From contig JAUIEJ010000016.1 of NCBI GenBank assembly GCA_030428885.1, positions 1 through 64,000 of the forward strand: 64,000 nucleotides of DNA. Reading direction: 5' to 3'. The position numbers and the translations under genes were made by a program. Below the pieces are notes generated by a model. That model was given only the letters and a program-made list of their open reading frames with translations. It was not told where the DNA came from and made no database searches. Shown here in pieces: positions 5,113-32,486 of this stretch. The number at the start of each line of letters is the position of its first letter. The stretch's first letter is position 1. The DNA comes from Gemmatimonadota bacterium. GTDB lineage: Bacteria; Gemmatimonadota; Gemmatimonadetes; Longimicrobiales; Gaopeijiaceae.

Positions 5113-6549
5113 TCAGCCCTGGGACCAGCGCGTGCCCTGGGGCGTGTCTTCGAGCACGATGCCTCGCTCGGTGAGTTCATCGCGGATGGCGTCGGCCCGA
5201 GCCCAGTCCTTGTCGGCCCTGGCCTGCTTCCGGTCGGCAATCTTCTGCTCGACCCACGTGGCCAGATCGTCGTCCACGGCGTCGTCGGCCATGGCGAGTT
5301 CCAACAGACCGAACACCCGATCCATGGAGGCCAGGGCGTCCCGGGCGGCCTCCAGTTCGTCACTCCGGGCGCGACCCCCGGTGCGATCCAGGGACGTGTT
5401 CACGTCGCGGAGGAAACCGAAGAGCGCCGCGAGAGCCTCCGACGAGTTCAGGTCGTCGTCGAGGGCTGCCTCGAACGCCTCCAGGGCGGCCTCGGCGGCT
5501 GGGGCGAGACCGGCCGGCTCTGCCGCGTCGTCGACGGTCGTCTCGTCGTGGAGGCGCCGGTGGAGGGCCACCAGCCGCTGGACCGCCCGGGCGGACCCCT
5601 CGAGCCCGTCGAAGGTGAAGTTGAGCTCCTTGCGGTACTGGGCGCTGATCATGAGGTGGCGGATCGCCGCGGGGGCGTGCCCCCGCTCCACGAGTTCCGG
5701 CACCGAGTACACGTTGCCCAGGGACTTGGACATCTTCTGTCCTTCGACCCGGAGGTGTTTCGTGTGCATCCACGCCCGGGCGAAGATGTGCCCCGTGGCG
5801 CCCTGGGACTGGGCGATCTCGTTTTCGTGGTGGGGGAAGAGCAGATCCTCTCCCCCCAGATGCAGATCCAGGGTCTCGCCCAGGGCCCCCACGCTCAGCA
5901 CCGAACATTCGAGGTGCCACCCCGGCCGCCCCTCGCCCCAGGGGGAGTCCCATACCGCCCCCACCGCGCGATCGGCGTCCCGGGCGGCCTTCCACAGCAC
6001 GAAGTCCCGCACATCGTCCTTGTCGTACTCGTCGGCATCGATGCGGGACCGGCCCGTCTCGCCGTCGGCCCGGTTGCCCGAGAGGCGCCCGTACTCGGGG
6101 AACGCCGAGATGCGGAAATAGACCGAGCCGTCTTCGGCCCGATAGGCGAGCCCCTTCTCCTCCAGGCGGCGGATCCACTCCACCATCTCGTCCACGTGCT
6201 CCGTGGCCCGGGGCGTGTCGAAGAAGGGTCGGATCCCCAGGGTGGCGGCGTCGGCGAGGAACGCCTCGCCGTGGGGTGCCGTGAAGCTCCCGAGGTCGGT
6301 GCCGGCCCGGGCCGCACCCTCGATGGTCTTGTCGTCGACGTCGGTGAGATTCACCACGAAGCGGGGTTCGTACCCCTTCCACTCCAGATACCGGTGGAGC
6401 ACGTCGTAGGCGATGAACGTCCGGAAGTTGCCGATGTGGGCCCGGCCGTAGATGGTGGGGCCGCAGCCGTAGACCCGGACCACGGGCGGGTCGGCGGGCT
6501 CGAGGGGACGGACGGTTCGGGAGAGGGAGTCGTAGAGGCGGAGGGCCAT
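5113..6549 (-). CDS. cysS: Cysteine--tRNA ligase
   Basis: A 478-residue class I aminoacyl-tRNA synthetase that charges tRNA-Cys with cysteine in the cytoplasm. Visible marks are the zinc-site cysteine and HIGH-type motif near the N-terminus (VYGCGPTIYGRAHIGNFRT), the second zinc ligand region (GWHLECSVLS), HHENEIAQS, and the KMSKSLGN loop. The C-terminal part carries the DALR-type helical anticodon-binding region. Length is normal for bacterial CysS (about 460-480). The start MALRLYDS is chosen because it matches where the family begins; an upstream start would add 17 unrelated residues overlapping the previous gene's end. It follows the NTF2-like gene by 20 bp in the same transcription direction. 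Confidence 0.97.
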   Translation of the reverse strand: MALRLYDSLSRTVRPLEPADPPVVRVYGCGPTIYGRAHIGNFRTFIAYDVLHRYLEWKGYEPRFVVNLTDVDDKTIEGAARAGTDLGSFTAPHGEAFLADAATLGIRPFFDTPRATEHVDEMVEWIRRLEEKGLAYRAEDGSVYFRISAFPEYGRLSGNRADGETGRSRIDADEYDKDDVRDFVLWKAARDADRAVGAVWDSPWGEGRPGWHLECSVLSVGALGETLDLHLGGEDLLFPHHENEIAQSQGATGHIFARAWMHTKHLRVEGQKMSKSLGNVYSVPELVERGHAPAAIRHLMISAQYRKELNFTFDGLEGSARAVQRLVALHRRLHDETTVDDAAEPAGLAPAAEAALEAFEAALDDDLNSSEALAALFGFLRDVNTSLDRTGGRARSDELEAARDALASMDRVFGLLELAMADDAVDDDLATWVEQKIADRKQARADKDWARADAIRDELTERGIVLEDTPQGTRWSQG

Positions 6550-6569
6550 GGGGAACGGCGTGGGGAGGC

Positions 6570-7013
6570 TCAGGAGAAGACGCGGATCTCCTCGATGCAC
6601 CAGTCGTCGAGGATTCGTTCCAACGACACGAAGATAACGAACGACCGGGCCTCCGACGTCCCCGCATCACGAACCGTCCACACCAACTCCACCAGCCCCC
6701 GGGGCGGGTCGCCTCCCAGGGCCTCTCCGCGCCGGACCGCCACCTCTCCGCCGGGGCGCTCGGCCAGGAATCGGGACAGGGCCGCCCGAGCCTGCCGCCG
6801 GTTCACGCCCCGGTGATCGGCGCCGTCGAGGCTCAGGTGGATGCCCTCTTCGGGAAGAAACGGCACCAGGCCGTCGGCGTCGCCGGCGACCCAGGCCTCG
6901 GCCAGGGTGGCGGCGAAGCGGCCCAGGGCCTCCTCGTCCTGGGCTGCAGCGGGCACCGCGGCCCCGGGCATCAGGGCCCACCCCACGGCCACCGCCAGGA
7001 GGGCGCGCCTCAC
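6570..7013 (-). CDS. Small exported protein, probably NTF2-like fold
   Basis: A 147-residue protein from a GTG start (VRRALLAVAVGWALMPGAAVPAAAQ) that forms a GTGA overlap with the pyrF stop. It begins with a clear signal peptide ending in AAAQ. The mature part has the layout of an NTF2/SnoaL-like domain: an early helix (ALGRFAATLAEAWVAGD), a loop with DGLVPFLPEEG, then a strand-rich half ending in WCIEEIRVF. It most resembles DUF4783-type periplasmic proteins, though I cannot prove this by eye. Such domains usually bind ligands rather than catalyse, and the function here is unknown. It is translationally coupled to pyrF but need not share its pathway. Confidence 0.65.
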   Translation of the reverse strand: MRRALLAVAVGWALMPGAAVPAAAQDEEALGRFAATLAEAWVAGDADGLVPFLPEEGIHLSLDGADHRGVNRRQARAALSRFLAERPGGEVAVRRGEALGGDPPRGLVELVWTVRDAGTSEARSFVIFVSLERILDDWCIEEIRVFS

Positions 7014-7708
7014 GCGCCGGCTCCGGCCCGCATGGACTCCACCACCTGCACCACGGCCGCGTGTCGATCGTCGGCGCCGGTGATGGCCCGCCCCACCACC
7101 AGGTAGTCGGCCCCGTCCCGAACCGCCTGCTCCGGCGTGGCCACCCGGCGCTGATCGTGGGCCGGCCCGCCCTGGAGGCGGATCCCGGGGGTGACCAACA
7201 CCGCGTCGGGCCCCAGGGAGTCCCGCAGCGCCGAAACCTCGTGGGCCGACGACACCACCCCGTCGATGCCCGACGACCGGGCCAGGGTGGCCAGACGCCG
7301 GACCTCGGCCTCCACGTCGGAGACGGGACGTCCCCACACGGTGGAGAGCTCGTCGGCGGAGAACGACGTCAGCACCGATACGGCGAGAAGGCGGAGCCGC
7401 CCTCCGGCGGCCTCGGCCGCGGCGGTGAGCATGGGCTCGCCCCCGGTGGCGTGGACGGTCAGGAGTTCCACGTCCAGTTCCGCCGCGGCCCGCACTGCCC
7501 CGGCCACGGTATTGGGAATGTCCAGGAGCTTGAGGTCGAGGAAGACCCGCTTGCCCCGCCCGTGGAGGGCCCGCACCACACCCGGGCCGGCCCGGGTGAA
7601 GAGCTCGAGACCGACCTTGTAGAAGTCGACGTCGTCGCCCAGCTCGTCCACCAGGGCCAGGGCGTGGCGCTGGCTGGGCTGGTCGAGGGGGAGAATCAGT
7701 TCCGCCAC
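7010..7708 (-). CDS. pyrF: Orotidine 5'-phosphate decarboxylase
   Basis: A 232-residue enzyme that makes UMP from OMP, the last step of de novo pyrimidine synthesis. It shows the KVGLELF substrate-binding strand, the catalytic D-x-K-x-x-D signature (VFLDLKLLDIPNT) and the late VTPGIRLQG phosphate-binding segment. Length matches the bacterial short form. The GTG start (VAELILPLD) is chosen because it is preceded at good spacing by a GGAG ribosome site and gives the expected N-terminus; upstream in-frame sequence overlaps pyrD. It lies 13 bp after pyrD, the preceding enzyme but one in the same pathway, and overlaps the next gene by 4 bp (GTGA). Confidence 0.95.
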   Translation of the reverse strand: MAELILPLDQPSQRHALALVDELGDDVDFYKVGLELFTRAGPGVVRALHGRGKRVFLDLKLLDIPNTVAGAVRAAAELDVELLTVHATGGEPMLTAAAEAAGGRLRLLAVSVLTSFSADELSTVWGRPVSDVEAEVRRLATLARSSGIDGVVSSAHEVSALRDSLGPDAVLVTPGIRLQGGPAHDQRRVATPEQAVRDGADYLVVGRAITGADDRHAAVVQVVESMRAGAGA

Positions 7709-7721
7709 GGGGACTCCGGCC

Positions 7722-8720
7722 TCATGCGGTCTCGAGGGGAGAAGAGGACACCGTGTGTGACCCCGCCGCGCCCGGGGAGGATCCCTCGGCGGTGCGGGGG
7801 CCCGGACCCCACGGCGGGGGCAGATCCCGGCGCCGGTCCAGGCCCCGGATGATGCCGGCGGCGGCCCGGGGCGCCGCGAACGAGGCCGTGCCCACCTGCA
7901 CCAGGACCGCCCCGGCCCGGAGGTATTCCAGCGCATGTTCGGCCCGAAGGATGCCGCCGACGCCCACCACGGGCACGTCCACGGCTCGACTCACGGCGTG
8001 CACGGCCTGGACCCCCACGGGTCGGAGGGCCGGACCGCTCACCCCCCCCTGCCCCGCTCCGATGCGCGGCCGGCCGGTGGCGGGGGCCAGGAGGCGCCCC
8101 GGCAGGGTGTTGATGAGGGTGAGTCCGTCGGCGCCGGCGCCGGCGGCGGCCCGGGCCGTGTCGGCGAGGTCGGGGTCGTTGGGGGCCAGCTTGGCCAGCA
8201 GCGGTCGATCGGTCACGGCGCGACAGCGCCGGATCACCGCCTCCAATGCCTCCCGGTCCAACGAGAAGGCCCGTCCGCCGAGGCGCTGATCGTTGGGACA
8301 GGAGAGGTTGAGTTCGAACCCGGTGAAGCCCGGCGCCTCGTGGAGCCCCTCCACCAGGGCCACGTACTCGTCCACGGTGTGCCCCGCAACGGAGACGAAG
8401 ACTCGAGGCCGCACCACGTGGTGGGCGAGCCAGGGCAATTTCTCGTCCCGGGCCACGGCCAGACCCGGGTTGGCGAGCCCGATGGAGTTGACCATGCCGG
8501 CGTCGAACTCGGCGACCCGGGGGGCGGGGTTTCCCGCCCGGGGCTCCAGCGTCACCGACTTGGTGACGAGTCCGCCCAGTGCCTCCAGGTCCAGGACCCC
8601 GGTGAGCTCCCGGCCGAACCCGCAGGTGCCCGCGGCCAGGAGGACCGGGTTCTGGAACCGCACGCCGAAGATCTCGGCGCCGCCGGCAGGGGCGGGGCGC
8701 GGGGGGTCCAGCCGGGTCAC
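7722..8720 (-). CDS. pyrD: Dihydroorotate dehydrogenase (class 1B type)
   Basis: A 332-residue FMN enzyme that oxidises dihydroorotate to orotate. Marks are the N-terminal FQNPVLLAAGTCGFG, GLVTKSVTLEPRAGN, the NSIGLANPG substrate segment, the catalytic-cysteine loop ELNLSCPND, and the FMN phosphate-binding VGVGGI and QVGTASF segments. The active-site cysteine places it in class 1 (cytosolic). Class 1B enzymes use a PyrK iron-sulphur partner, which is not in this window. The GTG start overlaps the previous stop (GTGA). The C-terminal 30 residues, rich in Pro/Gly/Ser, extend beyond the usual family end. Adjacent pyrF supports a pyrimidine sub-operon. Confidence 0.94.
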   Translation of the reverse strand: MTRLDPPRPAPAGGAEIFGVRFQNPVLLAAGTCGFGRELTGVLDLEALGGLVTKSVTLEPRAGNPAPRVAEFDAGMVNSIGLANPGLAVARDEKLPWLAHHVVRPRVFVSVAGHTVDEYVALVEGLHEAPGFTGFELNLSCPNDQRLGGRAFSLDREALEAVIRRCRAVTDRPLLAKLAPNDPDLADTARAAAGAGADGLTLINTLPGRLLAPATGRPRIGAGQGGVSGPALRPVGVQAVHAVSRAVDVPVVGVGGILRAEHALEYLRAGAVLVQVGTASFAAPRAAAGIIRGLDRRRDLPPPWGPGPRTAEGSSPGAAGSHTVSSSPLETA

Positions 8721-10129
8721 GACACCCCCGGGCCCAGGGTATCGGCGCCCCGGAGAAAGAGGTCGCGCCGAAGGGCCTCGGCATCGGCGCGGGCCAACAG
8801 AGCCTCCACGATCCCGTCCAGGCGGGCCTCCAGGTCTCCGAGGGACGGCCCCGCCGGCGACTCCGACCGGGCCTCGGCAACGTAGGGGTCCCCGCGCCGC
8901 GCCTCCAGCCCCGACCGGAGGGCCGGATCGCTTCGCGGGTCGGGGGTCGTGGCCAGGGCCGCGAGGATCGCCTTGCCGGCCCAGGGGCTGCCGGGCGCCT
9001 CGCTGGCGAAGCGGAGGAACAGCCCCCGGGCCAATCGGGGCGCATCGAGACGGTCCCGGGCCACCTCGGCGGCTACGAACCACGCCAGAGGGTCGTCGGT
9101 GGCGCCCCATCCGTCCAACACCTCCACCCGCCGGATGTCGGCGGCCAGGGCGGCCACGTCGGGATTGCCCCCGGCGGGAAGGAGCACCCGGCGGACCGCA
9201 TCCAGGTCGGCCACCTCCTCGGTTCGCCGCAACCGGATGCCCGCCACCACCAGGCGCGCCGCCTCGGCACCGGGAGTAGTGCCCTGGGCGGCCCACCCCG
9301 CCTCGGACTCCACGGCCAGGGTGTCGCCGGCCTGGGCCAGGAGGGCCACCCGCTGCATGAGGAGGCGGTCCCGGGGGCCGGGAGGCCAGTCGCCCGTGCG
9401 GGTGGGCGCCAGGAGGGCGGCGGCGGGCCCGGGGCCCCAGCGGCGAGCCGCCCGCCCCACCAACGCCCCGATGGAGTCGGCGAGCATCCCAGCCCGGGCA
9501 TCGGAGAGCAGCCCCGACGCCGCCTGCAGGGCCCGGACCGTGTCGTCGGCGGCGATGCCCCATGCCAGGCGCTGGAATTCCACCGGAATACGCAAACGGG
9601 GGTCCACCTGCTGGGCCCGGTTCAGATCCGAAAGCCCTTCGCCGACCCGCCCCTCGTCGAGATACAGGCGCCCTCGCCAGAAGTGGGCCTCCCCGGCGAG
9701 GTCGGTGTCGGCCAGGTCGCGCACCGCCTCGTCCAGGAGTGCCCGCGCACGGGCGTGATCGCCCACCTGGGCCCGGGCCGCCCCCAGGTAGAGGCGGGCC
9801 CCGGCCGCCACCGCGGGATCGTCGGCCCGCTCCGCCGCGGCTTCCAGGGCACCGAGGGCGCGGGCGTGGTCACCGAGGCGCAGGTAGGCGCGCCCCAGCA
9901 CGTAGAGGGCGTCGTCGGCCCAGGGACCGTCGGGTTCCCGCCGGAAGCTGGCCGACGCCTTGCGCACGGCGTCGTCGTAGGCCACCCGGGCCTCGTCGGA
10001 TCGACCCTCGATGCGGGCCCGCTCCCCGTCGTCGAAGCGCTGCCGGGCGTTGTAGAGGGAATTGAGGTAGACGCACCCCGAGGCGACCAGGCCCAGGAGC
10101 ACGCCCGCCCCGGTCCGCCGAACGGTCAC
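8717..10129 (-). CDS. TPR-repeat lipoprotein
   Basis: A 470-residue protein with a lipoprotein signal (LLGLVASGCVYLNSLYNAR, lipobox Cys19). Tetratricopeptide-like helix pairs follow: the first around residues 35-60 (ARIEGRSDEARVAYDDAVRK), then DDALYVLGRAYLRLGDHARALGALEAA, ARLYLGAARAQVGDHARARALLDEA and AHFWRGRLYLDEGRVGEGLSDLNRA. The second half continues as alanine-rich helices with weaker repeats. It is likely a periplasmic or outer-membrane scaffold. It uses a GTG start overlapping the amidase stop and overlaps pyrD by GTGA, so it is coupled on both sides. A role in envelope assembly fits its amidase and L,D-transpeptidase neighbours, but this is inference. Confidence 0.8.
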   Translation of the reverse strand: MTVRRTGAGVLLGLVASGCVYLNSLYNARQRFDDGERARIEGRSDEARVAYDDAVRKASASFRREPDGPWADDALYVLGRAYLRLGDHARALGALEAAAERADDPAVAAGARLYLGAARAQVGDHARARALLDEAVRDLADTDLAGEAHFWRGRLYLDEGRVGEGLSDLNRAQQVDPRLRIPVEFQRLAWGIAADDTVRALQAASGLLSDARAGMLADSIGALVGRAARRWGPGPAAALLAPTRTGDWPPGPRDRLLMQRVALLAQAGDTLAVESEAGWAAQGTTPGAEAARLVVAGIRLRRTEEVADLDAVRRVLLPAGGNPDVAALAADIRRVEVLDGWGATDDPLAWFVAAEVARDRLDAPRLARGLFLRFASEAPGSPWAGKAILAALATTPDPRSDPALRSGLEARRGDPYVAEARSESPAGPSLGDLEARLDGIVEALLARADAEALRRDLFLRGADTLGPGVS

Positions 10130-25682: not shown

Positions 25683-27140
25683 ATGATCCGTCGCCTGCCC
25701 CCCACCGCCGTGCTCGCCGCGGCCGCCCTCGCTGTCGCCCCTTCGCCTGGTCGCGGCCAGGACGCCGACCACGCCTTCGTGCTGGACCACGTGGCCGCGG
25801 AGCAGGAGCTCCACGCCGCCACGGCCATGGACATCTGGAACCTGGCCGAGGTGGGGTATCAGGAGATGGAGAGCTCGGGGCTGCTCCAGGAGCGCCTGCG
25901 GGAAGCGGGCTTCCGGGTGGAGACCGGGGTCGCGGGGATCCCCACGGCCTTCGTGGCGGAATGGGGCGAGGGCGGACCGGTCATCGGGATCCTGGCCGAG
26001 TTCGACGCCCTCCCGGGGATCACGCAGGAGGCGGTACCCGAGCGGTCGCCGCGGGACGATGTGGCGGCGGGCCACGCCTGCGGCCACCACCTCTTCGGCG
26101 CCGGCTCGGTGGCGGCGGCCCGGGCCACCAAGGCGTGGCTGGAGAGCACCGGCACGCCGGGCCGGATCCGGCTGTACGGAACGCCCGCCGAGGAAGGCGG
26201 CGCCGGCAAGGTCTACATGGTGCGCGAGGGGCTGTTCGCCGACGTGGACGCCGTGCTGCACTGGCACGCCGACAGCCGCAACAACGCCTCGCCCCGGACT
26301 TCCCTCTCCAACAAGTCGGCCAAGTTCCGCTTCCGGGGCATTTCGGCCCACGCCGCCGCGTACCCGGAACGGGGGCGCTCGGCCCTGGACGGGGTCGAGG
26401 CCATGAACATGATGGTCAACATGATGCGGGAGCACATTCCCCAGGAGTCCCGCATCCACTACGTGATCACCAGCGGCGGATCGGCGCCCAACGTGATCCC
26501 CGACTTCGCCGAGGTCTACTACTACGTGCGCCACCCCGACGCCTCCATGGTGGCCGAGTTGTTCGAGCGGGTCGTGGCCGCCGCCGAGGGCGCCGCCCTG
26601 GGCACGGGCGTCGACGTGGACTACGAGGTGATCCACGGGCTCTACTCACTGTTGCCCAACGACGCCCTCCAGGAGGTCATGTACGCCAACCTGTTGGAGG
26701 TGGGCGGGGTCGAGTACACCCCGGAGGAGCGGGCCTTCGCCGAGATCATCCAGCGCTCGTTCGAGGGCACGCCGCCCGCCATCGAGTCCGCGGCGGACAT
26801 CGAGGAGTACGGGTTTCTCTCCGGCGGCGGCAGCACCGACGTGGGCGACGTGAGCTGGGTCGTGCCCACCGGGGGACTCCGGGCCGCCACCTGGGTGCCC
26901 GGAACGGCGTCCCACTCCTGGCAGGCCGTGGCGGCCGGGGGCACTACGATCGGGGCGAAGGGCATGGTGGTGGCGGCCAAGACGCTGGCCCTCACCGCCG
27001 TGGATCTCTTCCGGAATCCCGCCACCATCGACGCCGCCCGGGCCGAGCGGGCGGAGCGCGTGGGGCCCGACTACGTCTACACCCCGCTCCTGGGCGACCG
27101 TCCGCCGCCCCTGGACTACCGGGCCGGCGCAGGCAACTGA
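25683..27140 (+). CDS. Exported M20-family amidohydrolase (AbgB-like)
   Basis: A 485-residue zinc hydrolase with a signal peptide (LPPTAVLAAAALAVAPSPGRGQ). Catalytic marks are ILAEFDALPG, the GHACGHHLFGAG metal site, the TPAEEGGAGK glutamates, HWHADSRN, and the dimerisation-domain FRGISAHAAAYPERGRSALDGVE. These fit the AbgB/p-aminobenzoyl-glutamate hydrolase branch of M20, which splits amide bonds of folate fragments or N-acyl amino acids. Export to the periplasm is unusual for AbgB. The ATG at 25683 directly precedes the signal peptide. Its last 25 bases overlap the convergent TPR gene. Confidence 0.88.
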   Translation: MIRRLPPTAVLAAAALAVAPSPGRGQDADHAFVLDHVAAEQELHAATAMDIWNLAEVGYQEMESSGLLQERLREAGFRVETGVAGIPTAFVAEWGEGGPVIGILAEFDALPGITQEAVPERSPRDDVAAGHACGHHLFGAGSVAAARATKAWLESTGTPGRIRLYGTPAEEGGAGKVYMVREGLFADVDAVLHWHADSRNNASPRTSLSNKSAKFRFRGISAHAAAYPERGRSALDGVEAMNMMVNMMREHIPQESRIHYVITSGGSAPNVIPDFAEVYYYVRHPDASMVAELFERVVAAAEGAALGTGVDVDYEVIHGLYSLLPNDALQEVMYANLLEVGGVEYTPEERAFAEIIQRSFEGTPPAIESAADIEEYGFLSGGGSTDVGDVSWVVPTGGLRAATWVPGTASHSWQAVAAGGTTIGAKGMVVAAKTLALTAVDLFRNPATIDAARAERAERVGPDYVYTPLLGDRPPPLDYRAGAGN

Positions 27141-27973
27141 GGCGGGGGCAGCTCGTCGAGCATGCGCCGGACGTCGGCCTTGAACCGGTCGTCCACCGGG
27201 TAGATCGACGGGAGGGCCAGGGTCGCCTCCCAGACGTCCCGGGCCTCCTGGGGCCGGTCCAGCGCCGCCAGGGTCTCGCCCAGGTCCCGGGCGAAGAGGA
27301 CCGTCGCCGGGTCCACCTCCACGGCGCGGCGGTGGTGCCGCAGAGCATCGTCCCAGTTGGCTTCCTTCAAGGGGTCGATGCTGAAGAGGAGTCGGCCGAT
27401 GAACCGCTCGAAACCCGAGAGGCTCATGACCTCCTGGTTGAGCTTGCCCAGGATGTTGTGGGCCCCCGGATGGTCCGGCTCGAGCTCCAGGATGCGGTGC
27501 GTGAGGTCCCACACTCGCTGCACCAGCCGGGTCGACGTCCGGGGTCCGTGCTGGAGCGCCTCCCGACCCAGCGACGCCGCCGCCCAGTAGAGCACGTCGG
27601 GGTCGTCGGGCTCGAGGGCCACGGCGGCCTCACCGAAGTCGCCGGCCCGGACGAACCACGCCTCCTCCACCTCGGATCGGGTCTCCAGGATCCCCAGCAT
27701 GAGGGACACCTGGGCCGCCCGCCACAGGGCCCCGGCGTCGGCCGAGTCCCGCTCGATGCGGAGTTCCAGGCGCTGGAGGGCGTCGGCCAGACGGTCCTCG
27801 GTGAGGAGCGCGTCGATGGTGGCATCGGCCAGGGGATCGCCCGTGGCGGCCTCCAGGGGAGGCGGAGGGGCCAGAGGCTGGGACGAGACCGGCTCCGCCG
27901 AGAGACCCGGAAGGAGCGACACCGCGACCCATCCCGGGAGGCTGCGGACCGAACGGACGAGGCGAGAGGGCAT
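27116..27973 (-). CDS. Exported TPR-repeat protein
   Basis: A 285-residue protein from the ATG at 27973 with a signal-peptide-like start (SLPGWVAVSLLPGLSAEPVSSQ). It has tetratricopeptide-type helices: ALQRLELRIERDSADAGALWRAAQVSLMLG, FGEAAVALEPDDPDVLYWAAASLG, the HRILELEPDHPGAHNILGKLNQEVM block, and a closing DDALRHHRRAVEVDPATVLFARDLGETLAALDRPQEARDVWE. The GKLNQEV and SIDPLKEANWDDAL patterns resemble bacterial relatives of RMD1-type TPR proteins. The role is probably protein-protein scaffolding. The gene sits 104 bp downstream of the hydrogenase-like gene on the same strand and overlaps the M20 hydrolase 3' end by 25 bp. Confidence 0.8.
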   Translation of the reverse strand: MPSRLVRSVRSLPGWVAVSLLPGLSAEPVSSQPLAPPPPLEAATGDPLADATIDALLTEDRLADALQRLELRIERDSADAGALWRAAQVSLMLGILETRSEVEEAWFVRAGDFGEAAVALEPDDPDVLYWAAASLGREALQHGPRTSTRLVQRVWDLTHRILELEPDHPGAHNILGKLNQEVMSLSGFERFIGRLLFSIDPLKEANWDDALRHHRRAVEVDPATVLFARDLGETLAALDRPQEARDVWEATLALPSIYPVDDRFKADVRRMLDELPPPQLPAPAR

Positions 27974-28077: not shown

Positions 28078-29520
28078 TCAGCAGGCCGCGCAGGGATCGA
28101 AGGACCGGACAGCTCGGAGGATCTCCAGAGGCCGGTCCGGATCGAGCACCTCCGCACCGTTCACCGCACCCGCCAGGAGTCCCAGGGTCCACGCCGACGG
28201 CGACACGATGTGGTAGTCCACCACCACGCCGTCGTCCAGATCGACGCGGTGGGCCACCACGCCCCGGGGTCCCTCGTGGAATCCCACCCCCCGGCGCCGG
28301 CCCGACGGAAGGGTCGGAGGCACGAACGCCGGGCCCTCGCCCGATGCCAGACCGCGGTCCGCCCGGTGCCAGTGCTCCAGGGCGAGATCGGCCAGGGCCG
28401 CGGCCCGGATGGCCCGAGCCACGTGCCGCCCCCGGGCCGACGCCAGCGCCTCGGGGGACACGGCCGTCTCCCGGCCCGCCACCTCGGCCCATCGGCACAC
28501 CGCCGGGTCGCCGGCGGCGAGTCCCGCCAGGACCTGGGCGACCGCCCCCACCTCCACGACCCGTCCGTGAAACCGGGGGGCGTGGGCGAGCCCGTCCCGG
28601 AGGCGCTCCCCCTCCCAGCGCACGAAGGTCTCGGCCCCCTCGCCGTCGACGGAGCTCGCGCCCCCGGACAGGTCGAAGCCCGGCGCCGGACCCCGGTGGG
28701 GAAACTCGGGCACGGCCAGGTACCCCTCCGCCCCCCCGCCCCGCCCAGGTTCCCCGGGCGCCAGAGTCGCCAGGGCCAGGGCGTCGGGGAGGTACACCTC
28801 GTGCACGAACGCCCGCAGTTGGTCCAGGAGCTCCCTCACTGCGTCCAGATCCCGCCGAGCGACGCCCTGGACCACCCCGCCCACCGCCAGGGTGTCCACC
28901 CGGGGGGCCTGCCCCCCCAGGAGGGCCACGACCCGGGTCGCGGCTCGCCGCGCCTGCCGAGCGGCGATCCCGTGGGAGACGAGCACCAGGGCCCGCTCGG
29001 GATCGGGCAGGAGCCCGGGATGGCCGGAATACGGCGACACCAGACCGTGGCGCCTCGCCCGGGCCCGCCGCCGGCGAAGCCGATCCTGGACGTCGAGCAG
29101 GCGGGCCGCCGGCTCGCCGTGGCGTCGGGCCGCCACCGAGGCGTCGGCGTGGAGCGCCAGGTCGAGGTCGAACCAGTCGGGCACGGCGCCCTGGTAGAAA
29201 TGCCGAAGGGCGGCGGCGACGCCGTGGGCCCCGCTCATGAGGTTGCGGAGGTGCCGGGCGCTGCAGGGCACAGCGAGGTCCAGGGCGTCCTCCACGGCCC
29301 GGACGGCGGCCAGGGCGTGGCCCGGCCCGCAGGTGCCGCGACAGATGCGCTGGGCCGCGAGCCAGGCGTCCCGGGGATCCTGCCCGACCAGGGCGGAGGG
29401 TGCACCGGCCCAGGGAGGGCGGGAGGGGCGCACCGCGGCGACCCGGCCACCCTCCACGGTGAGGTCGAGGCGGAGGCGGCCGTCGACGCGGGGCACCGGA
29501 TCCAGGACGATGGAGGGCAT
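28078..29520 (-). CDS. Orphan [NiFe]-hydrogenase-like large subunit, shortened and divergent
   Basis: A 480-residue protein that aligns by eye to the group-1 uptake-hydrogenase large subunit (HyaB/HupL) along its length: LDPVPRVDG at the start, GQDPRDAWLAAQRIC, GPGHALAAVRAVEDA, LRNLM, HFYQGAVPDW, VYLPDALAL, the RRGVGFHEGPRG block (Arg419) and a final RPLEILRAVRSFDPCAAC. Family members oxidise or sense H2 at a Ni-Fe centre held by four cysteines. Departures: the first cysteine pair is C60-RGT-C64 (three residues between, not two); the usual RIEGH glutamate is Asp13; the protein stops exactly at the fourth cysteine, C480, lacking the terminal His and cleaved tail; it is about 115 residues shorter than HyaB. 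No small subunit, cytochrome b or hyp gene is nearby. A repurposed or unusual hydrogenase-like protein is the best reading. Confidence 0.78.
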   Translation of the reverse strand: MPSIVLDPVPRVDGRLRLDLTVEGGRVAAVRPSRPPWAGAPSALVGQDPRDAWLAAQRICRGTCGPGHALAAVRAVEDALDLAVPCSARHLRNLMSGAHGVAAALRHFYQGAVPDWFDLDLALHADASVAARRHGEPAARLLDVQDRLRRRRARARRHGLVSPYSGHPGLLPDPERALVLVSHGIAARQARRAATRVVALLGGQAPRVDTLAVGGVVQGVARRDLDAVRELLDQLRAFVHEVYLPDALALATLAPGEPGRGGGAEGYLAVPEFPHRGPAPGFDLSGGASSVDGEGAETFVRWEGERLRDGLAHAPRFHGRVVEVGAVAQVLAGLAAGDPAVCRWAEVAGRETAVSPEALASARGRHVARAIRAAALADLALEHWHRADRGLASGEGPAFVPPTLPSGRRRGVGFHEGPRGVVAHRVDLDDGVVVDYHIVSPSAWTLGLLAGAVNGAEVLDPDRPLEILRAVRSFDPCAAC

Positions 29521-29711
29521 GGTGAACCGCCTTGGGGGGGAGAGGCGAATTCCGCCCATAATAGGGCCCCCGGGCCCGTTTCGCGGTAGGGAGATCCCTC
29601 GCGCCGAGCGCGGGGACTCTTCCCCGGCCCCGGTGGTGAGGGACCCGGATTGCCCCCCCGTGCCCACCGGCGCAGGTTGCCCCGTAGCCCGTTCCCCCTG
29701 CCCCACCCGCC
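29521..29711. promoter_or_regulatory. Divergent intergenic region, hydrogenase-like gene / S9 peptidase
   Basis: A 191-bp gap with no reading frame I can support. It holds a TATTAT sequence on the minus strand (29558-29563), placed about 38 bases before the hydrogenase-like start, as a possible -10 box, but no good -35. An AAGGCGG-like ribosome site precedes that start. On the plus strand I see no clear promoter. Confidence 0.35.
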
Positions 29712-32486
29712 ATGATCATTCCGTCGTCGTTCTCCATCCCGTCGTGCCGGTCCGTCTTCGCGGGCCTCTGCGGGGCCCTTCTCCTGGTGCCCGCCGCCGC
29801 CGGCGCTCAGGACAAGCCGCCCATCACCTGGACCGACCTCATGCAGATCCGGCAGGTCGACGATGCGTCGATCTCGCCCGACGGCCGCTGGGTCGTCTTC
29901 ACCGCGGCCCCCGATCGAGGGGACGGAGAGGTGGTGGTCCGCGCGGTGGACGGCGAGGCCCGATTCACCGTGGCTCGGGCCGACAACCCCACGGTGTCCG
30001 ACGACGGCGCGTGGATGGCGGCCCGGGTGCTTCCGTCGCTGGAGGCCCGGGAGACCCGGGACGGGGGCCCGCCGCTGCGCAACGGCATGGCCCTCATGGC
30101 CCTCCCCTCCGGCGCCGTGGAGACCGTGGACGAGGTGCGGTCGTTCGCCTTCTCCCCCGATGGGGCCTGGCTCGCCTACCACCGCCACGCGCCGCGCGAC
30201 GACGACGAGGGCGCCGACGACGATGAGGGCCCGGAGGAAGACGACCCGGGGACGGAGCTCGTGCTCCGGAGGTTGGCCGACGGCACCCTCCGCACCCTTC
30301 CCTTCGTGCGGGCGTTCGCCTTCTCCGACGACGGAGGCCTTCTGGCCACGGTGGTGGGCTCGCCCGACGATGCCGAGGACGGCGTCTGGGTCCACGACCT
30401 GAGCGAGGGCGAGGTGACGGCGGTGGACAATCGACCCGACGGGGTCTACGGCGACCTGACCTGGGGAGAACACGACGCCGAACTGGCCGTGGTGGCAGCC
30501 GATCCCGCCGAGACCGAGGGTCGGCCCGCGTCGGGCGAGGTGGTGGTCTGGCGGGCCGACGAGGGCCCGGCCACCTGGGTGGCGGCGGACGACGCGCCCG
30601 AAGGCTGGTTCGTGCCCGTGGGTGCGGACCTGACGTGGAGCGAGGACGGGGCACGCCTGTTCTTCGCCTGGCGGCCGCTCCGGGACGACGAGGGCGCGCC
30701 CGCCACCGACGACGAGCCGGCCTTCGATGCCTACGACACCGACCAGATCCTCGACGGCCGCGGCGTGGACGTCTGGCACTGGCAGGACCCCCGCATCATG
30801 ACCCAGCAGAAGGTCGTGTGGAACCGGGAGAAGGAGCGCACCTACCGGGCCGTGCGGCATCGGGACGGGGCCACCGTGGCGCTGGGCGGCCTCGACCTTC
30901 CCGACGTGCGGATTCCCGAGGCCGAGTCCCCCGTCGCCCTGGCCACCTCCGACCTGCCCTACCGATGGGAGTCGACGTGGACCGGGGGAGCCGACGACGC
31001 CTACGTCGTGGACCTCGCCACGGGCGAGCGCACCCGGGTGGCCGAGGCCCTGGGGAGTTCCCCGAATCTCTCCCCCGACGGCCGCTTCGTCGTCTGGTGG
31101 CAGGACGCCGCGTGGTGGATCCACGACGTGGCGTCGGGCGACGCCCGGGCCCTGGGGGCCGACATCCCCGCCCCCCTGGCCGACGAGGACTGGGACTACC
31201 CGGACGAGGTCCCGAGCTACGGAGTGGCCGGGTGGATGGACGACGACGCCGCGGTGATCCTCCGGGACAAGTACGACCTCTGGGTGGTGCCCACCGACGG
31301 CTCGGCCTCGTGGAGCCTCACCGACGGTCGGGGCCGGGCCGAGCACCGGGTCTTCCGGCTCGAGAACGTGGACGGCCCCATCGCTCCGGGGCAGGAGCTC
31401 CTCCTGGAGTCCTACCACGACCTCCGGAAGAACTACGGATTCTACCGGGCCCGGGCCGGCGAGGCCGGGGTCACCCGGCTCCTGGAGGACGACAAGCGTT
31501 TCGCCTTCCTGGCCCGGGCCGACGACGCCGAGCGCATGCTCTTCACCCGGGAGGCGTACGATGAATTCCCGGACCTGTGGGTCGCGGATCCGGACTTCAA
31601 AAATCCGTCGAAGGTAACGGACGTAAATCCCGGCCTGATTGACCGTTACGCATGGGGCTCCGCGGAACTGGTGGAATGGTGGAGCCTCGACGGCACTCCC
31701 CTTCAGGGCGTGGTGATCAAACCCGGCAATTACCAGGAAGGACGCCGGTATCCGGTCCTCGTCTACTACTACCGCTTCTTCAGTCAGCGGCTCCACGAGT
31801 TCAACGACCCGTCGGTGAACCATCGCCCCAGCTTCCCCGTCTACGCCTCCGACGACTACGTGGTCTTCCTCCCCGATGTGCGGTTCGAGGTGGGAAGCCC
31901 GGGACTGGCCGCCACCAAGAGCGTGGTGCCCGGGGTGCAGAAGCTCATCGACATGGGGCTGGCCGATCCCGATGGGGTGGCGCTCCACGGGCACAGTTGG
32001 AGCGGGTACCAGACGGCCTTCATCGTGACCCAGACCGACCTCTTCGCCACCGCCGTGGCCGGGGCTCCGGTGGCCAACATGACCAGCGCCTACTCGGGGA
32101 TCCGGCTCGGCTCGGGGCTGGCCCGGCAGTTCCAGTACGAGAAGACCCAGAGCCGCATCGGGGGCTCCCTCTGGGAGAACTTCGACGAATACGTGGAGAA
32201 CTCCCCGGTCTTCTACGCCGACCGCATCGACACGCCCATGCTGATCCTCCACGGCGACGTCGACGACGCCGTGCCGTGGGAGCAGTCCATCGAGCTGTAC
32301 CTGGCGCTCCGGCGTCTGGGCAAGGAGACGGTGTTCCTCCAGTACCGGGACGAACCCCATCACCCCCAGCGGTACGCCAACAAGCTGGACTGGTCCATTC
32401 GCATGAAGGAGTGGATCGACCACTACACGAAGGGGACTCCGGCGCCGGCGTGGATGACCGAGGGCGTGCCCTACACGGGCAACTGA
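29712..32486 (+). CDS. Exported S9-family prolyl-oligopeptidase-like serine peptidase
   Basis: A 924-residue protein with a signal peptide ending AAAGAQ. The first 600 residues form a WD40/PD40-like beta-propeller with repeated SPDGRW/SPDGAW units, plus an acidic insertion (about residues 165-180). The C-terminal alpha/beta-hydrolase domain carries the catalytic Ser in LHGHSWSGYQT, Asp in HGDVDDAVPW and His in RDEPHHP. Such enzymes cut short peptides, often next to proline or small residues. The GHSWSGY elbow is a variant of GxSxGG. It is divergent from the hydrogenase-like gene and followed after 17 bp by a small zinc-ribbon gene. A peptide-scavenging role fits other exported peptidases in the window. 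Confidence 0.92.
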   Translation: MIIPSSFSIPSCRSVFAGLCGALLLVPAAAGAQDKPPITWTDLMQIRQVDDASISPDGRWVVFTAAPDRGDGEVVVRAVDGEARFTVARADNPTVSDDGAWMAARVLPSLEARETRDGGPPLRNGMALMALPSGAVETVDEVRSFAFSPDGAWLAYHRHAPRDDDEGADDDEGPEEDDPGTELVLRRLADGTLRTLPFVRAFAFSDDGGLLATVVGSPDDAEDGVWVHDLSEGEVTAVDNRPDGVYGDLTWGEHDAELAVVAADPAETEGRPASGEVVVWRADEGPATWVAADDAPEGWFVPVGADLTWSEDGARLFFAWRPLRDDEGAPATDDEPAFDAYDTDQILDGRGVDVWHWQDPRIMTQQKVVWNREKERTYRAVRHRDGATVALGGLDLPDVRIPEAESPVALATSDLPYRWESTWTGGADDAYVVDLATGERTRVAEALGSSPNLSPDGRFVVWWQDAAWWIHDVASGDARALGADIPAPLADEDWDYPDEVPSYGVAGWMDDDAAVILRDKYDLWVVPTDGSASWSLTDGRGRAEHRVFRLENVDGPIAPGQELLLESYHDLRKNYGFYRARAGEAGVTRLLEDDKRFAFLARADDAERMLFTREAYDEFPDLWVADPDFKNPSKVTDVNPGLIDRYAWGSAELVEWWSLDGTPLQGVVIKPGNYQEGRRYPVLVYYYRFFSQRLHEFNDPSVNHRPSFPVYASDDYVVFLPDVRFEVGSPGLAATKSVVPGVQKLIDMGLADPDGVALHGHSWSGYQTAFIVTQTDLFATAVAGAPVANMTSAYSGIRLGSGLARQFQYEKTQSRIGGSLWENFDEYVENSPVFYADRIDTPMLILHGDVDDAVPWEQSIELYLALRRLGKETVFLQYRDEPHHPQRYANKLDWSIRMKEWIDHYTKGTPAPAWMTEGVPYTGN

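Follow-up and report, generated by a model that had tools for sequence, protein, structure and literature searches.

A lone HybC-like hydrogenase large-subunit homologue with a rearranged active site in a Gemmatimonadota genome

A [NiFe]-hydrogenase large subunit normally works with a small subunit and an elaborate cofactor, and an isolated gene of this family in a Gemmatimonadota genome (assembly GCA_030428885.1, contig JAUIEJ010000016.1) raises the question of what such a protein could still be doing. The gene lies in a window of 64,000 nucleotides, the whole stretch of DNA that was analyzed. The open reading frame of this gene, here called the orphan, runs on the minus strand from an ATG at 29520 to a TGA at 28078 and encodes 480 amino acids plus the stop. 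The original prediction had not stated the strand. Upstream of the ATG, at 8 nt, stands an AAGG that is a good match to a ribosome-binding site. The features of the locus are collected in Table 1.

Table 1. Features of the orphan gene and its flanks (positions in the window)
Feature	Position	Strand	Basis
Orphan HybC-like hydrogenase large-subunit homologue, 480 aa	28078..29520	-	ORF, Pfam, PDB match, model
Ribosome-binding-site-like AAGGCGG, directly 5' of the orphan ATG	29523..29540	-	sequence
R11-V-D-G-R15 in place of RIEGH (proton-gate Glu to Asp, His to Arg)	29476..29490	-	alignment
Altered L1 motif C60-R-G-T-C64 (canonical CGVC)	29329..29343	-	alignment
A103-A104 region, Ala-Ala for the conserved Asp-His (HDH motif) ahead of HFY	29206..29214	-	alignment
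Shortened middle segment, residues ~287-313, ~39 aa fewer than relatives, low model confidence	28582..28662	-	alignment, model
C477-A-A-C480 at the very end, with TGA as the next codon; no canonical CxxH or tail	28078..28092	-	alignment
TPR protein with signal-like N-terminus, flanking gene, common in the family, no evident link to the orphan	27119..27973	-	family genome search
S9 prolyl-oligopeptidase-family peptidase, divergent flanking gene	29712..32486	+	search of relatives

The orphan matches a single Pfam family, NiFeSe_Hases (PF00374), with an E value of 2e-82 and a score of 278 bits against a curated cut-off of 25.8. The hydrogenase-2 large subunit ranks first among the NCBIfam models, with a score far under the equivalog cut-off of 969 bits. 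The nearest solved structures found in a PDB search are the hydrogenase-2 (Hyd-2) large subunits of E. coli and Citrobacter, and the best match is that of E. coli at 33% in the fold alignment. An AlphaFold model obtained with 33 aligned homologues has a pTM of 0.82 and a mean pLDDT of 73.7, and its TM score of 0.89 against PDB 6EHQ (E. coli Hyd-2) indicates that the large-subunit fold is kept in the model. The corresponding values for the canonical relative G067, modeled with the same alignment set, are higher at 0.90 and 83.6. Judged by its sequence, the orphan is certainly a [NiFe]-hydrogenase large-subunit homologue and is closest to Hyd-2/HybC. The original prediction had traced the protein to a hydrogenase large subunit and had proposed a profile search and structural modeling as checks; both return this family and fold. 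It had compared the protein with HyaB, which is right as to the family, but HybC is resembled more.

The motifs were compared in an alignment of the orphan with canonical large subunits of its own phylum and of gammaproteobacteria. The canonical N-terminal CxxC is absent and the first cysteine motif is C60-x3-C64; since H68 and the second Cys remain in register, one residue has been inserted. The proton-gate Glu of RxEGH is replaced by D13, and the His of the same motif is also gone (R15). The C-terminal DPCxxCxxH and its cleavable tail are absent, the chain ending with DPCAAC. Selenocysteine insertion or readthrough at the TGA was considered and rejected, as the downstream frame gives GEVGETTAR and then a stop with no CxxH. 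The four cysteines C60, C64, C477, and C480 are retained together with H68, HFY, xPRG, and SFDPC. The C-x3-C spacing, the Glu to Asp13 change, the end at C480 without a terminal His or tail, and the retention of all four active-site cysteines had each been correctly read in the original prediction. The protein had also been estimated to be about 115 residues short; it is shortened, but by 71 residues relative to the mature HybC-type relatives of the phylum, which reach 551 aa at the terminal His. The loop after W444 is among the deleted parts. The orphan differs from its nearest relatives by 10 indel events, every one in frame. A sequencing error, raised as a way in which the prediction could fail, is not the explanation, because all changes are in frame and the canonical homologues in relatives are distinct genes, which lie at other loci and share ~40% identity with the orphan. 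The positions identical across 32/32 canonical sequences number 128, with 76 kept in the orphan and 52 (41%) lost, whereas held-out canonical sequences show 0-3 differences at comparable invariant positions.

The genome is a 5.39 Mb draft in 23 contigs and is 95.4% complete. No second PF00374 gene, hydrogenase small subunit, HypD, or HypF zinc-finger domain was found in it. No HypE scored above the cut-off of 251.6; the only matches, at 26-30 bits, are expected of related enzymes and also occur in all control genomes. The maturation search covered HypD, the HypF zinc finger, and HypE. In 12 relatives searched in parallel, HypD was detected in 11 and a small-subunit match in 11 (10 above the cut-off). 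All 10 tested relatives whose large subunit clearly belongs to group 1 possess both HypD and a small subunit, and the eleventh (G005) has a more distant hydrogenase. The small subunit lies within ~2.5 kb of the large subunit in all five of the relatives nearest in sequence. Synthesis of Fe(CN)2CO depends centrally on HypD with its [4Fe-4S] cluster (PMC12134894), and a normal NiFe site is thus not expected in the absence of HypD, barring hyp genes in the missing 5%. The earlier statement that no small subunit, hyp, or protease gene adjoins the orphan holds at the locus, and the orphan status extends to the whole draft for the small subunit, HypD, the HypF zinc finger, and over-cut-off HypE.

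The small-subunit contact loops of Cupriavidus necator HoxG comprise residues 24-28, 171-191, 244-250, and 373-386 (PMC9886862). HoxG was taken from megaplasmid pHG1 and aligned with the orphan to map these loops. Highly conserved residues are lost at 12/16 positions in the contact loops and at 53/136 elsewhere (Fisher p = 0.007), a comparison in which the 16 residues come mostly from one loop and the deletion sites were known beforehand. The conserved residues kept are 4/16 and 83/136, respectively, and the loss rate in the loops is about double. Around the first Cys pair 13/15 are kept, and in residues 326-419 the count is 11/15. A stand-alone protein should preferentially lose the residues that face the partner and retain its core, which is the pattern read from the alignment and not one expected of uniform decay.

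No orthologue of the orphan was found among 97 relatives, in 121 genomes of the family, in 154 of the order, or in ~395 of the phylum and ~394 of the class (overlapping sets). None appeared in a scan of GTDB r220 species, which is sensitive to close relatives only. Plasmids yielded only homologues below 60% identity, and viral contigs yielded no homologues. Canonical large subunits are in every case the best matches, with ~40% identity over the N-terminal half of the orphan, and identity to the nearest relatives in the phylum is 39-41%. No precedent for a solo hydrogenase large subunit was found in the open-licence literature.

The orphan branch is 2.3 substitutions per site long (LG+G), about ten-fold the ~0.2 of the nearest canonical relatives. 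With the topology fixed, its length is 0.69, 1.01, and 1.66 at sites that are invariant, intermediate, and variable in the family, respectively. Neutral decay predicts equal rates across these classes; the unequal rates mean that constraint has been relaxed or changed, not removed. When neutral evolution was simulated so as to reproduce the loss seen at invariant sites, identity fell to an equal degree in all three classes (0.59-0.61), and just 1-6% of the runs remained free of stops, before indels are counted. Identity to G067 is 0.62, 0.42, and 0.23 for the three classes, a gap that partly reflects the divergence of G067 itself. The GC3 of the orphan is 0.90, with 0.84-0.93 in 6/6 segments, and intergenic GC is 0.74-0.78. 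Codon usage is typical and in line with that of the neighboring genes, and GC1 and GC2 are unusually high at 0.86 and 0.56.

The TPR gene is located 104 bp downstream on the same strand, and the original prediction had suggested that the two proteins work together. The TPR family is present in 58/117 genomes of the family, mostly without a match to the orphan. In G004, of the same genus, the TPR gene (6123-5308, minus strand) and the S9 gene (6306-9122, plus strand) are separated by 182 bp that contain no hydrogenase gene, exactly where the orphan sits here. This empty site makes the orphan a solo insertion that arrived alone, with the TPR protein independent of it. A role for the orphan as partner or scaffold of the TPR protein is therefore very unlikely, the more so as a signal-like N-terminus is carried by the TPR protein and not by the orphan. 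Even less credible is an artefact of assembly or contamination: the draft is in 23 contigs, but the frame is intact, the codon usage is that of the neighbors, and both flanks on the same contig are genus-typical (S9 66%, TPR 63-70%, and PhoX-like segments 80-94%), which argues against contamination. Between the intergenic DNA here and that of G004, similarity did not exceed the level of shuffled sequence, which leaves the ends of the insertion without exact positions. A mobile-element footprint was sought and rejected, as only weak GC-rich repeat matches and no flanking duplication were seen. A promoter/terminator scan, a weak test, gave no promoter-like site at the orphan.

Several other observations were made in the flanking families and related genomes. 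The S9-peptidase family is strongly expanded, this genome having six strong homologues and most family members several. Members of the family also conserve the signal-bearing TPR protein, of which this genome has a second, distant copy (G000 contig C14:3603-4256). The 'single-contig' genome G002 of the same genus is a scaffold with 100-N gaps (L102:7966-8065 and L103:6275-6374); a gap interrupts each of its two hydrogenase subunit genes, small and large, which lie ~0.8 Mb apart and probably represent a mis-scaffolded operon. Its small-subunit gene stands beside an S9 peptidase, an arrangement judged coincidental, given that this peptidase shares just 38% identity and that the gaps interrupt the operon. 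A multicopper-oxidase-like ORF, judged by eye from the sequence, also lies beside the small-subunit gene (L103:3676-5865).

It is well supported that the orphan is no longer a working hydrogenase. Having lost its partner subunit, the genes for cofactor assembly, and some active-site features, it almost certainly has no hydrogen chemistry left. An odd but functional [NiFe]-hydrogenase, served by a small subunit and hyp genes that fall in the missing ~5% of the assembly, is very improbable. The four cysteines, H68, the Arg of xPRG, and the Asp of SFDPC would suit it, isolated large subunits with intact cofactor can activate H2 slightly (PMC9886862), and maturation of tail-less large subunits is possible (PMC7294309). 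However, the small subunit, HypD, HypF, and HypE were not found in the draft, every contact loop is altered, the spacing is C-x3-C, and the terminal His and HD motif are lost; the functional truncation in PMC7294309 retained the terminal His at its end.

Two readings carry most of the weight. The orphan may be a decaying relic, a large-subunit gene that arrived or was left behind alone and lost its function, its frame being open mainly because stops are rare at ~77% G+C; this is a real possibility that falls short of an even chance. The missing partners and cofactor machinery, the long branch, the changed invariant residues, and the singleton status agree with it, and the high GC1 and GC2 with Arg/Ala-rich substitutions fit GC-biased drift. 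The differential site rates, in-frame indels, improbable stop-free frame, coding-type GC3 in every segment, four kept cysteines, and preferential loss of the small-subunit face speak against it, although the relic reading would still accommodate a gene long held under constraint and only recently released from it. That the orphan has left hydrogen chemistry and its fold is re-used in some form is about an even call. The same absence of Hyp and small-subunit partners, the eroded partner face, the graded rates, the intact frame and its rarity under neutrality, the GC3, the modeled fold, and the empty site in G004 favor re-use; the singleton status, the 52/128 lost residues, the lower pLDDT, the branch length, which relaxed constraint would equally give, and the promoter scan count against it. 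Re-use is more likely than a dead relic, by a modest margin because the orphan is a singleton.

For a re-used fold, the ancestor would be a Hyd-2/HybC-type large subunit and the descendant a solo, fast-evolving gene between two genus-typical genes. Lacking HypD, the protein could not receive Fe(CN)2CO, and lacking a small subunit it would have no electron path. If expressed, it would most likely still fold, as a soluble single subunit, and may be of use to the cell. Within the former active-site cavity, the four kept cysteines might bind a simple metal ion (Zn, Fe, or Ni) or alternatively form a thiol/disulfide pair; both suggestions derive from the retained cysteines. The new metalloprotein or scaffold of the original prediction is likewise a possibility. 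This specific version, in which the protein stands on its own with neither small subunit nor CN/CO cofactor and its rearranged Cys pocket accommodates a different metal or a redox-active pair of thiols, is put forward tentatively.

The orphan shares with Hyd-2-type HybC (PDB 6EHQ and canonical G067, G069, G229, G262, and G361) the fold, the four cysteines, HFY, xPRG, and SFDPC, and differs in its C-x3-C, RVDGR, lost HD, deletion of ~70 aa, and lack of CxxH, tail, small subunit, and Hyp proteins. In NuoD/Nqo4 of complex I, a large subunit is re-used without a NiFe site; its cysteines are lost and the small-subunit partner NuoB is kept. The orphan is the opposite, with cysteines kept and the partner gone. 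If it is made and folded, it would show that a large-subunit fold can outlive its partner and elaborate cofactor. Large-subunit matches alone should not count as hydrogen metabolism in metagenomes, since the orphan clears the Pfam cut-off with ease although its genome shows no other trace of hydrogenase. Regulatory HoxC and other large subunits without a cleavable tail are listed in PMC7294309. They share with the orphan the missing C-terminal extension but have a small subunit and Hyp maturation, and the HoxC/CooH type ends in CxxCxxH whereas the orphan stops at the Cys itself. Among the canonical large subunits, that of G069 (L004) carries an unusually long, Cys-containing C-terminal tail (VFSPVAYAACKTDVCA).
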